From contig PLOR01000114.1 in NCBI GenBank assembly GCA_003142185.1, forward strand, positions 1-33,355: a DNA stretch of 33,355 bases, given 5' to 3'. Shown here piece by piece: positions 12,278 through 33,222 of the stretch (the first letter of the stretch is position 1; every line of letters begins with the position of its first letter). The DNA comes from Bryobacterales bacterium. Its GTDB lineage: Bacteria; Acidobacteriota; Terriglobia; Bryobacterales; Bryobacteraceae. The notes beneath the pieces are model-generated. The model ran no database searches, was not told the origin of the DNA, and saw only the letters and a list, made by a program, of their open reading frames with translations. The translations under genes were made by a program, and so were the position numbers.

Positions 12278-12404
12278 CGTGGCGCGGGCTGTCAGCCTGC
12301 AGAGCCGAGAGTCATCTCGGCTTTTCTTCGCCCCCGGGCTGCCTCAGCATCTTCAAGAAGGGTCGAGATGACTCGACCCTTCACGCACGACTGCGCGCGC
12401 CACG
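12278..12404. repeat. Family A palindromic element, copy 1
   Basis: The ends are exact 9-bp inverted repeats CGTGGCGCG (12278-12286) and CGCGCCACG (12396-12404). Each half contains its own hairpin: AGCCGAGA-gtca-TCTCGGCT in the left half and GGGTCGAG-atga-CTCGACCC in the right half. The second copy at 30312-30537 has the same architecture with different stem bases, showing that base pairing rather than sequence is kept. It fills the 270-bp gap between the MATE gene and the convergent methyltransferase gene; the rest of that gap shows nothing else. Confidence 0.78.
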
Positions 12405-21030: not shown

Positions 21031-21637
21031 CGACCACCCGGTGGTGAGGCGCGGGTTCCAGATGATTCTCGCCGAGCAATCCGACATGGAGATCGTGGGC
21101 GAGGCGGGCAACGGCCGTGAGGCGCTCGAGCTGGCCGCCAAGCTCAAGCCCGACGTGGTGGTGATGGATGTCGCCATGCCGGAGCTGAATGGCATCGAAG
21201 CCACCCGCCGCATGGCCGAGAATGCACCGCACGCGCGCGTGCTGGCGCTCAGCATGCACAAGGATTCGGTGTATGTGCGCGAGACTCTGCGCGCCGGCGC
21301 GCGCGGCTACCTGCTCAAGGATTCGGTGGCCGCCGACCTGGTGAGCGCGGTGCGCGCCGTGGCCGCGGGCGAAGGCTACCTCAGCCCGGCCGTTTCCGAC
21401 GCCGTGCTGGACGATTATCGCCGCCACGTCACCAATCCCATCGACCTGCTGACCAGCCGCGAGCGCGAGGTTCTGCAAATGCTCGCCGAGGGCAAGACCA
21501 ACAAGGAAATCGCCGGCGTCTTGAACCTGAGCGTCTACACCGTGGATGCGCACCGCGGCCGCATCATGGAAAAGCTCAACGTGCACAGCATCAACGAGCT
21601 GGTGCGCTTCGCCGTGCGCAACGGGCTGATCGATTAG
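21002..21637 (+). CDS. NarL/FixJ-family response regulator
   Basis: The 211-residue protein has a receiver domain (ADDHPVV, phospho-acceptor Asp56 in VMDVAMPE, Lys in LLKDS) and a LuxR-type helix-turn-helix (LTSREREVLQMLAEGKTNKEIA). It is the obvious partner of the overlapping kinase. ATG 21002 gives the standard MKRIRILLADDH start. The last base of its TAG stop (21637) is the first base of a family B palindromic element, so the repeat abuts the gene exactly. Confidence 0.94.
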   Translation: MKRIRILLADDHPVVRRGFQMILAEQSDMEIVGEAGNGREALELAAKLKPDVVVMDVAMPELNGIEATRRMAENAPHARVLALSMHKDSVYVRETLRAGARGYLLKDSVAADLVSAVRAVAAGEGYLSPAVSDAVLDDYRRHVTNPIDLLTSREREVLQMLAEGKTNKEIAGVLNLSVYTVDAHRGRIMEKLNVHSINELVRFAVRNGLID

Positions 21638-21725
21638 TAGGACGGACGATCGGTTTTTGTCGTCTGTCAATTTCCCGTGCTTCGGCGAAACATGACAGAC
21701 CACGTAAGGCGATGGTCTGTCCTAC
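21637..21725. repeat. Family B 89-bp palindromic element, copy 1
   Basis: Two 34-nt arms (21637-21670 and 21692-21725) around a 21-nt centre; each arm is itself a hairpin (for example GACAGACCA...TGGTCTGTC in the right arm read in reverse). Ends are GTAGGAC and GTCCTAC. The element at 30368-30456 is the same length in the opposite orientation, with arms identical except for one base and a diverged centre. It starts on the last base of the response-regulator stop codon. Confidence 0.85.
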
Positions 21726-21742
21726 CAGCGCTCGACGGCAGA

Positions 21743-21794
21743 GTGGGACAGACGCCTGGGTTTCGGGTCCGAAGCGGACTTTCGTCTGTCAACC
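21743..21794. repeat. Family C palindromic unit, single copy
   Basis: GTGGGACAGACG and CGTCTGTCAACC are separated by a longer loop than in the pair at 13328-13415, but the paired ends GACAGACG/CGTCTGTC and the GTGGG/CAACC edges match. It follows the family B element by 17 bp and precedes the minus-strand small gene's stop by 9 bp. Together the two repeats fill the 166-bp space between the convergent genes. Confidence 0.65.
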
Positions 21795-21803
21795 CGCGCT
21801 CCG

Positions 21804-28851: not shown

Positions 28852-30270
28852 ATGAAACGTATCACCATCGATCCGGTAACCCGCATTGAAGGGCACGCAA
28901 AGATTACCATCCATCTGGGAGACGATGGCAAGGTGGCGCGCACCCAGTTCCACGTGACGCAGATCCGCGGGTTCGAAAAGTTCACCGAAGGCCGCCCGTT
29001 TTACGAAATGCCGGGGATCACCTCGCGCGTCTGTGGCATCTGCCCCATCAGTCATCTGCTGGCGTCTTCCAAGGCGTGCGACGCCATCCTCGCCGTGCGG
29101 ATTCCCAAGGCGGCCGCGCTGCTCCGCGAACTGGTCCATTATGCGCAATTCGTGCAGTCCCACGCGCTGAGCTTCTTTCACCTGTCATCGCCGGACCTGC
29201 TGCTCGGTTTCGATTCCGACATCGCCAAGCGCAACGTGATCGGCGTCATTGAAAAGCATCCCGAGCTGGCGCGCGATGGCATCGAGCTGCGCAAGTTCGG
29301 GCAGCACGCGATTGAAATTCTGTGCAAGGAGCGTGTGCACCCGTCGTGGATCGTGCCGGGTGGAATGAAGGAACCGCTCAGCGCCGCCGGGCGGAGCGAG
29401 ATGCTCGCCGGCCTGCCCCAGGCCAAGGAAATTGCGCGGCGGGCGCTCGCGCTTTTCAAGAGCGTGCTGGATCGCTTCGACGAAGAAATCAAGAACTTCG
29501 GCACCGCGCCGATGATGAGCGCGGGTCTGGTGGATCGCTCCGGCGCGGTCGCGCTCTACGATGGCGGGCTGCGCTTCCGCGACGCCGAGGGCGCCGTGGT
29601 CGAGGACCAGATTCCGGCCGAAGACTACGCGACCTACATCGCCGAAGCATCCGCCAAAGACTCCTACATGAAGTCGCCGTACTTCCGGCCGCGCGGGTTT
29701 CCGGCGGGTATCTATCGCGTAGGTCCGTTGGCGCGATTGAGCGTCGCCGACCGCTGCGGCACGCCGGAGGCGGATAAAGAGCTGGCCGAATTCCGCGAGC
29801 GCTTCGGGCGGACGCCGCGCAGTTCGTTCCTCTATCACTACGCGCGTCTGATTGAAGCGCTGTATGCGCTGGAGCGAATGGAAGTGCTGCTGCAAGATCC
29901 GCGGATCCTCGACACTCACGTGCGGGCGCGGGCCGGCGTGAACGCGCTCGAGGGAATCGGCGTGATCGAAGCTCCGCGCGGAACCCTCATCCATCATTAC
30001 AAAGTGAACGAAGATGGCGGCATCGTCTGGGCCAACCTGATTGTGGCCACCGGACACAACGCGCTGGCGATCGCCGGCAGCGTGGAAGAAACGGCCAAGC
30101 ATTTTGTCGATGGCGGAAAGCTGCAGGAAGGCATGCTGAACCGCGTCTCGGCTGTGGTGCGGGCCTATGACCCGTGTCTGAGCTGCTCCACGCACGCCGG
30201 CGGCGCAACCCCAGTCGCCGTCGAGTTGCGCGCGCCCGATGGGTCGCTGCTCGATGAGGCACGCACGTAA
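28852..30270 (+). CDS. hoxH: NAD-reducing [NiFe] hydrogenase large subunit HoxH
   Basis: The 472-residue catalytic subunit. The L1 motif RVCGICPISH (C61, C64) and the L2 motif DPCLSCSTH (C442, C445, His448) bind the NiFe(CN)2CO centre. The L2 form and the 24-residue tail after His448 resemble group 3d (Hox) enzymes, whose tail is removed by a dedicated protease after nickel insertion. A candidate protease gene follows. The hyp maturation genes needed for CN/CO and nickel are not in this window. Together with HoxEFUY it would interconvert H2 and NAD(P)H. Confidence 0.95.
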   Translation: MKRITIDPVTRIEGHAKITIHLGDDGKVARTQFHVTQIRGFEKFTEGRPFYEMPGITSRVCGICPISHLLASSKACDAILAVRIPKAAALLRELVHYAQFVQSHALSFFHLSSPDLLLGFDSDIAKRNVIGVIEKHPELARDGIELRKFGQHAIEILCKERVHPSWIVPGGMKEPLSAAGRSEMLAGLPQAKEIARRALALFKSVLDRFDEEIKNFGTAPMMSAGLVDRSGAVALYDGGLRFRDAEGAVVEDQIPAEDYATYIAEASAKDSYMKSPYFRPRGFPAGIYRVGPLARLSVADRCGTPEADKELAEFRERFGRTPRSSFLYHYARLIEALYALERMEVLLQDPRILDTHVRARAGVNALEGIGVIEAPRGTLIHHYKVNEDGGIVWANLIVATGHNALAIAGSVEETAKHFVDGGKLQEGMLNRVSAVVRAYDPCLSCSTHAGGATPVAVELRAPDGSLLDEART

Positions 30271-30311
30271 GAGCTGTAACCTCTTGCCCGTACCGTCCTG
30301 GCGCACACCGC

Positions 30312-30537
30312 CGTGGCGCGGGCTGTCAAGCCTGCAGCGTCGAGAGTCGTCTCGACGTTTCCTCGCGGTAGGACAGACCATCGCCTTTCGTGGTCTGTCA
30401 TCGCGCGCCAAAGTGCAGCAAGTTGACAGACGACAAAAACCGATCGTCCGTCCTACCTCCGCGCGACGGCACCCACCTCGCAGCAGGAAAACGTCGAGAC
30501 GAATCTCGACGCAGCACGCAGGACTGCGCGCGCCACG
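30312..30537. repeat. Family A palindromic element, copy 2, interrupted by a family B element
   Basis: Outer ends CGTGGCGCG (30312-30320) and CGCGCCACG (30529-30537) match copy 1. Each half carries a hairpin, CGTCGAGA-gtcg-TCTCGACG on the left and CGTCGAGA-cgaa-TCTCGACG on the right. The interior (30368-30456) is a complete 89-bp family B element, so this is an element inside an element. Together they fill nearly all of the 277 bp between hoxH and the first plausible hoxW codon. Confidence 0.8.
30368..30456. repeat. Family B 89-bp palindromic element, copy 2
   Basis: Reverse-orientation copy of 21637-21725: the same total length, one 34-nt arm identical, the other with a single change, and a 21-nt centre matching at about half its positions. 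It begins GTAGGACAGACC and ends GTCCGTCCTAC. It lies within the interior of a family A element. Confidence 0.85.
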
Positions 30538-30547
30538 CCGCCCGCCA

Positions 30548-30934
30548 TTGATTCTCGGCTACGGCAATTCCCTGCGCGGCGACGACGCCGTAGGTCCGCA
30601 ACTGGCCACCATCCTGGGCGGATTAGCCGTGCAGCAGTTAGTCCCTGAGTTAGCCGAGCGCCTGGCATCTGAGGAGCGCGTCATCTTCATCGACGCGCGT
30701 GCAGACCTGCCGCCCGGCGAGGTTCAGATGATGCCGGTCGATGGCGAAAGCGCATCCACCCACTGGTGCTCGCCCGGATCCCTGCTTCGCCTGGCACTGG
30801 AAGTTTACGGCAAAGCCCCCGAGGCCATCCTGATCGGCATCGGCGGAGAATCCTTCGACCTAGGCGCCCCGCTCTCAGAAGCCGCGCGACAGGGCATGGA
30901 GAAGGCGCTTGCGCAGATCCGGGCGATGGGGTGA
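30548..30934 (+). CDS. hoxW: Hydrogenase maturation protease HoxW
   Basis: The product is about 128 residues and belongs to the HybD/HoxW peptidase family, which trims the HoxH C terminus once nickel is bound. Visible family blocks are LILGYGNSLRGDDAVG (first metal Asp in GDD), VIFIDARADLPPGEV (second Asp), and STHWCSPGSLL (His ligand). The best start is TTG 30548, exactly where the family normally begins, but no ribosome site precedes it; the repeat ends 10 nt earlier. The same frame is open back through the repeats to an ATG at 30239 inside hoxH, so a fused extension encoded by the repeats is possible. Confidence 0.8.
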   Translation: MILGYGNSLRGDDAVGPQLATILGGLAVQQLVPELAERLASEERVIFIDARADLPPGEVQMMPVDGESASTHWCSPGSLLRLALEVYGKAPEAILIGIGGESFDLGAPLSEAARQGMEKALAQIRAMG

Positions 30935-32030: not shown

Positions 32031-32121
32031 CTACCGATGCGCTTGCCGCGTCGGCTGGCTCTCCATCACAACGCGCAGAATGTGGTTAATGCGCGTTTGG
32101 TAGCCCCTGCCATGACCCTTG
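32031..32121 (-). pseudogene. Remnant of a BrnA-type antitoxin gene (C-terminal end)
   Basis: The 70 bp at 32052-32121 match the 3' end of brnA (32974-33043) with four differences, and encode GRGYQTRINHILRVVMESQP against GKGYQTRINHILRVVMESQP. The similarity stops upstream, where the ribbon-helix-helix strand should be, and no toxin gene is adjacent. It is probably the leftover of an earlier brnTA copy or of a duplication. Confidence 0.7.
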
Positions 32122-32958: not shown

Positions 32959-33222
32959 CTACCGACGAACTGGCGGCTGGCTCTCCATCACAACGCGCAG
33001 AATGTGGTTGATGCGCGTCTGGTAGCCCTTGCCCTGACCCTTGAGCCAATCGAGCACGTCCGCGTCCAGCCGAATCGTCAATTGCCTCTTCACCGGGGGC
33101 CAAGCCGTGATTGCCTTCTTGAGAAACGTCTTGTCGAGCGGCGGAATGTCCGAGTAGTCGATATCGGCGTCCCGCATCCGGTCAATCCGTGCCAAGTCGC
33201 TTTTGATAGATTTCTTGTTCAC
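32959..33222 (-). CDS. brnA: BrnA-type antitoxin
   Basis: An 87-residue antitoxin of the BrnA family. The N terminus has SDLARIDRMRDADIDYSDIPPL, then the ribbon-helix-helix strand KRQLTIRLDADVLDWLKGQG and helix YQTRINHILRVVMESQ. The start is GTG 33222, inside the brnT gene (41-bp overlap), the usual toxin-first order. It binds BrnT and represses the operon. Its 3' end is duplicated at 32052-32121. Confidence 0.9.
   Translation of the reverse strand: MNKKSIKSDLARIDRMRDADIDYSDIPPLDKTFLKKAITAWPPVKRQLTIRLDADVLDWLKGQGKGYQTRINHILRVVMESQPPVRR

Follow-up and report, generated by a model that had tools for sequence, protein, structure and literature searches.

How does a long palindrome come to lie at the start of a gene, and what can be read from one repeat standing inside another? 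Both questions are raised by a 33,355-nt stretch of a Bryobacterales genome (GenBank assembly GCA_003142185.1, contig PLOR01000114.1, positions 1 to 33,355; hereafter the window, meaning this whole stretch), in which a palindromic composite stands at the junction of the hydrogenase genes hoxH and hoxW. The composite is a unit within a unit: a short element, family B, lies between the two arms of a second dispersed repeat, family A. Family B is a GTAG-type REPIN, that is, two inverted repetitive extragenic palindromic (REP) hairpins flanking a variable spacer. The nesting gives at most an order of events at this site, and cannot rank the two families by age.

A REPIN within a second palindromic repeat

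At the hox site, the outer arms of family A (30309–30360 and 30489–30540; 52 nt each) are 85% complementary with a separation of 128 nt. Profile limits place the left arm at 30312–30362 on the plus strand (two hairpins in tandem followed by a T-rich tail; 54 bits) and the right arm at 30489–30537 on the minus strand (41.8 bits), leaving 126 nt between them. Within this interval lies a family B element of 91 bp (30367–30457, plus strand), composed of a GACC-type REP (30367–30400, plus strand, 42.0 bits) and an inverted GACG-type REP (30424–30457, minus strand, 38.8 bits), both with GTAG feet, each 34 nt long, 82% complementary and separated by a 23-nt spacer. A first-pass annotation of this DNA had likewise placed a whole B element inside A, and only its limits (30368–30456, 89 bp) needed correction. 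Folded as single-stranded DNA, positions 30302–30547 reach −81.5 kcal/mol, which none of 200 dinucleotide shuffles equalled (z = −8.8).

Across the 5.79 Mb genome, a pattern for the B unit gave 92 + 95 matches and its reversed control 0 + 0, so that the unit is not a product of chance. We read 70 B loci, chosen among the matches listed, and found inverted pairs within 130 bp at 59 of them. Thirty genome copies, aligned by their ends, had one layout: a GGTAG foot leads into a hairpin, and ~23 nt of spacer separate this from a second, inverted hairpin unit; nearly all ended in GGTAGG, which places the foot in the GTAG (GT[AG]G) type. An alignment of 28 copies confirmed almost constant ends and a variable spacer.

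Family A is a second dispersed repeat family, similar to terminal inverted repeats (TIRs) or to REPs. The consensus of 37 arms consists of two tandem hairpins with GTCA-type loops, and standard pairs occupy 537 of the 542 pair cells of the alignment, with several pairs altered on both sides. By the yardstick of GTAG-type REPs, its arms have CGTGGC before the stem, yet two hairpins rather than one. A pattern for the second hairpin matched 80 + 72 times genome-wide (control 0 + 0); an earlier, stricter pattern, superseded as too strict, had given 9 matches only.

The two families also occur apart. Among 12 sampled A doublets, 11 lacked B and had their arms 13–40 nt apart, the exception being the hox copy (126 nt, B inside); the sample was collected with a B-less query copy, which biases it towards B-less doublets. 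One such doublet lies in the window itself (12278–12404; arms 12278–12329 and 12354–12404), where 24–26 nt separate the hairpin arms and B is absent, as the first pass had claimed. Conversely, 65 of the 70 sampled B loci had no A arm within 50 nt, and for none of the 70 did the nearest A arm lie at 51–300 nt. B is therefore separate from A, and the possibility that all copies of A might carry B, in which case the two would form one element, was contradicted by the B-less doublets.

The second B element of the window (21637–21726, minus strand) has the opposite orientation, is 88% complementary to the hox-site copy, and had no A arm beside it in arm and profile searches of the window. A LuxR-like regulator frame ends where this element begins, so that its GTAG foot overlaps the stop codon (window 21635–21800); a weak third B-like arm follows at 21743–21767.

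Transposase genes, mobility and order of insertion

Seven Y1_Tnp genes scored above the Pfam cut-off in the genome. The first pass had proposed looking for a REP-associated tyrosine transposase (RAYT) elsewhere in the genome, and these genes include one for each family. The Y1 gene on C109 (L065) is flanked on both sides by B units and also contains B units inside its frame: in L065:1144-1845 (G000 C109), a B half-unit (TDDTNRSSVLPR) is in frame ~59 residues ahead of the HuH motif, with a second at the C-terminus. The Y1 gene on C51 (L063) has an A unit upstream, an inverted one overlapping its 3' end, which forms the C-terminus of the transposase, and a third farther on. The remaining five Y1_Tnp loci, read 1.5 kb to each side, showed neither A nor B units at the thresholds used.

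The same in-frame B units were found in two tandem relatives of the B transposase from another genus (G021; L129 and L154, 76% and 73% identical). Named relatives of the B transposase include Terriglobia and Bryobacterales metagenome-assembled genomes (MAGs), the nearest being from a Terriglobia MAG (L231, 73% over part) and a Candidatus Sulfopaludibacter MAG (L227, 42%). Across 117 RAYT-like frames from the fetched loci, an interior copy of the flanking repeat was seen in 12, which include weak cases and long unrelated frames. A run of several B half-units was also observed in the congener G001 (L111, C109, ~76246–76593).

The ends of B carry no sign of target duplication, which the first pass had suggested might be found there: 26 of 28 copies had none (22.3 expected when the flanks of different copies are paired), and the other two had a chance-like 2 nt. 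Family B thus lacks the target-site duplication of classical miniature inverted-repeat transposable elements, as would be expected of single-strand transfer. An A nucleotide precedes the left end in 18 of the 28 copies, and the right end is followed by T (19/28) and C (18/28).

That B moves as a unit is likely from a comparison of sites between the two genomes, although here the first pass had been more definite. Occupancy differed at three compared sites: B was present only in G001 at C214, the own genome having 27 nt of other sequence there, and only in the own genome at two C110 sites, one of which (C110:973) faces a different palindrome in G001 and the other (C110:5695) no recognised B. 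At C99/C174, B was partly shared. Using one common pattern for both genomes, B units matched 24 times in G001 versus 169 times in the own genome; for A, the corresponding numbers were 68 and 152.

Support for A as a preferred landing site for B, another suggestion of the first pass, is weak. Five of the 70 B loci (L001, L021, L158, L168, and L185) had an A arm within 50 nt, and at a further locus, L002 (C64), B was found by eye inside a decayed A-like palindrome. These six compare with a rough expectation of 2.6 (P ~0.05), in which an eightfold intergenic concentration is assumed.

At the hox site, the order A then B is suggested by the short B-less spacers (13–40 nt) of 11 of the 12 doublets, and by the place in the congener that matches C64, where an A arm is present and B absent. 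The first-pass annotation had gone further and taken the nesting as a measure of the families' relative age. No such ranking holds, because both families and the same hox nesting are found in G001, where, in addition, one locus (L121) is nested the other way round, with a B element enclosing an A arm; an age order was accordingly rejected. Nested repeats are often taken as a clock for whole families, and the shared and reverse nesting of one congener shows how this fails.

The hoxW reading frame and the origin of the composite

The gene hoxH, encoding the large subunit of a NiFe-hydrogenase, occupies 28852–30270 on the plus strand (start MKRITID, stop TAA at 30268–30270; Pfam PF00374, E = 6.9e-32). 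The hoxW frame (30254–30934, plus strand, 226 residues, Pfam HycI match) opens at an ATG overlapping hoxH. From this ATG, the frame continues through the composite without a stop, over 306 nt in the own genome and 411 nt in G001, whose HoxH is 92% identical and which carries A-B-A at the equivalent site; in the other two forward frames there are 3 and 3 stops (own) and 3 and 4 (congener). The two large length differences between the species, 54 and 51 nt, are both multiples of three. A-B-A makes up most of the first ~100 codons, with the maturation-protease part following from ~30545.

HoxH matches were found in 23 of 61 genomes, and 20 loci were read by eye (the own genome, G001, and 18 further relatives). 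At eight of these, all outside the genus (L070, L074, L076, L083–L087), hoxW adjoins hoxH without an insert and starts either overlapping the hoxH end or a few bases away; at ten of the 20, no hoxW was found beside hoxH. As the relatives' hoxW starts at or near the hoxH end, the composite lies within the beginning of the hoxW frame. The first pass had placed it between hoxH and hoxW, which needs correction, since there is no clean gap between the two genes. On sequence grounds, the composite is likely translated as part of HoxW.

We consider it quite probable that a B REPIN mobilised in trans entered an A doublet lying in frame at the beginning of hoxW, and that the resulting composite was tolerated. 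In the proposed history, a doublet of the double-hairpin family A, using its own C51 Y1 transposase, would have arrived first where hoxH meets hoxW, keeping in frame with the 5' end of the latter. A non-autonomous B REPIN, mobilised by the RAYT-type Y1 transposase from C109, would then have entered the short A spacer without target duplication. The nesting probably predates the split between the genus's two known species. Since the insert stayed in frame, hoxW would not have been lost, and the composite would have been tolerated as an N-terminal extension of ~100 residues (~135 in the congener).

Several observations weigh against this account. Transposition itself was not observed, and the congener sites compared gave no clean empty site for B, as they differ beyond the element. 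Neither transposase was found in G001, in an assembly 91% complete. The doublet is less secure as the moving unit of A than it is of B, given that of 30 sampled A loci only 7 were doublets and a single arm was seen at 23. The HycI match (E = 1.9e-4, 21.7 bits) falls slightly under the Pfam curated cut-off of 23. In dinucleotide shuffles, an open frame arose by chance with a probability of 0.11 for the own sequence and 0.07 for the congener, two values that are not independent. Finally, the extension differs between the species at 29/22/32 first, second and third codon positions, giving no visible amino-acid selection (for comparison, 14/11/51 in the HoxW domain and 33/13/140 in HoxH).

The last point also fits a different explanation, which we rate somewhat below an even chance: that A-B-A has been kept as a regulatory structure in RNA or DNA, serving transcript stability, attenuation or as a translation spacer, that hoxW starts within or just after it, and that the open frame is accidental. 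The comparison of the two species lends this explanation further support. Differences are few in the B arms (5 of 68 positions), compared with 11 in the 23 positions of the B spacer (P = 6e-5) and 140 in the 504 third codon positions of HoxH (P = 9e-5), and the left A arm, despite nine differences, still pairs at all of its changed pairs (three altered on both sides, one on one side). In the own genome, moreover, a TTG at 30548 adjoins the protease domain, and N-terminal REPs are often non-coding, as excerpts of Di Nocera 2013 (PMC3733652) warn. Nevertheless, the congener codon aligned to this TTG is CTG, with no common start codon near the domain; the frame stays open across both large indels, each a multiple of three; and the right A arm (eight differences) has three changed pairs, two of them broken in the congener. 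The constancy of the hairpin arms would follow equally from selection on the hairpins or from conversion by other family members. The latter process belongs to another explanation, in which both species acquired the repeats independently at a hotspot, or gene conversion kept the copies family-like, and in which sharing would say little about age. In its favour, the B arms have kept the family consensus beside a diverged spacer, the left A arm matches a different A subtype in each species, and in a third genus (G016, L082) hoxH is directly followed by a B-like REPIN without A. Set against this, the distance from the A right edge to the hoxW motif (19 nt) and the length of the B right flank are equal in both species, and we regard independent acquisition or conversion as unlikely. 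That A-B-A is a single composite moving whole is extremely improbable: its presence in two species at the hox site would fit, but each family has a different flanked transposase, most sampled B loci (65/70) have no A arm within 50 nt, and within the sample this candidate was rejected on the absence of B from 11 of the 12 A doublets.

Returning to the insertion of a B REPIN into an in-frame A doublet, one may go a step further and propose that HoxW owes a new, expressed N-terminal extension to the joint action of two palindrome families that compete with each other and have separate single-strand transposases. The extension would have stayed open through at least one speciation, its hairpins rather than its amino acids being maintained by selection or conversion. 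We put this forward tentatively, as a doubtful proposal. The hox site also serves as a small natural experiment on two points: whether translation reads through REP-type palindromes at the start of genes, and what holds hairpin arms constant as spacers drift.

Relation to known palindromic elements

Family B resembles the REPINs described in excerpts of Bertels and Rainey 2011 (PMC3116915) in its inverted conserved REPs, less conserved spacer, single-strand hairpin and high copy number, and in having a RAYT gene near copies of its own REP. It differs from the REPINs of those excerpts in its host, a lineage in which the named relatives of the transposase include Terriglobia and Bryobacterales MAGs, and in its position within another repeat and a reading frame; it is known here from genome sequence. 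The transposase gene of B also has a counterpart in the tnpA-REP genes of subclass 2.4, which carry in-frame REPs according to excerpts of Quentin et al. 2018 (PMC6006769); the B transposase gene likewise carries a B unit in frame, but differs in that this unit lies ~59 residues before HuH.

For the nesting and for family A, the closest parallels were found in the excerpted parts of Di Nocera 2013 (PMC3733652). These describe GTAG-15 dimers within long palindromes in Anabaena variabilis, and a similar arrangement in T. roseum and H. neapolitanus; the host palindromes of A. variabilis and H. neapolitanus were not found there without REPs. In contrast to them, the host palindrome A is dispersed, has its own transposase and is mostly B-less, and the reverse nesting exists. 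The same parts describe TIRtrons (TIRYT), in which long inverted repeats, partly self-complementary, enclose a Y1 gene and are also dispersed as singles and dimers, the sharpest TIRYT group being that of the Acidobacteria. Family A is alike in that its C51 Y1 gene is flanked by inverted copies and that singles and dimers are dispersed, a likeness at the level of description. Rickettsia palindromic elements and intragenic REPs, in the same source, provide precedents for in-frame palindromes in reading frames, N-termini included; unlike those described, the hox site has two different families stacked in one gene start, that of hoxW. In the literature searched, with subscription papers outside the search, no report of such a hoxW arrangement was found. 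The kinds of element are thus already known, as a REPIN inside a TIR-like repeat, while the lineage and the arrangement are new and the place is unusual.

A scan of the window with Rfam at gathering thresholds gave 0 matches. A third repeat type (GTGGGGCAGG...CCTGCC...CCCGCATGCGGGCG) stands to the left of A in the hoxW start of G001 (L069), with similar sequences in L175 and in C110 of the own genome. Elsewhere in the window, a separate palindrome has arms at 427–461 and 485–519 that are 94% complementary, with a similar CACGGATGAACACGGAT stretch in L060, and a 70-nt direct repeat (32052–32121 and 32974–33043, 94% identical) lies close to the contig end.
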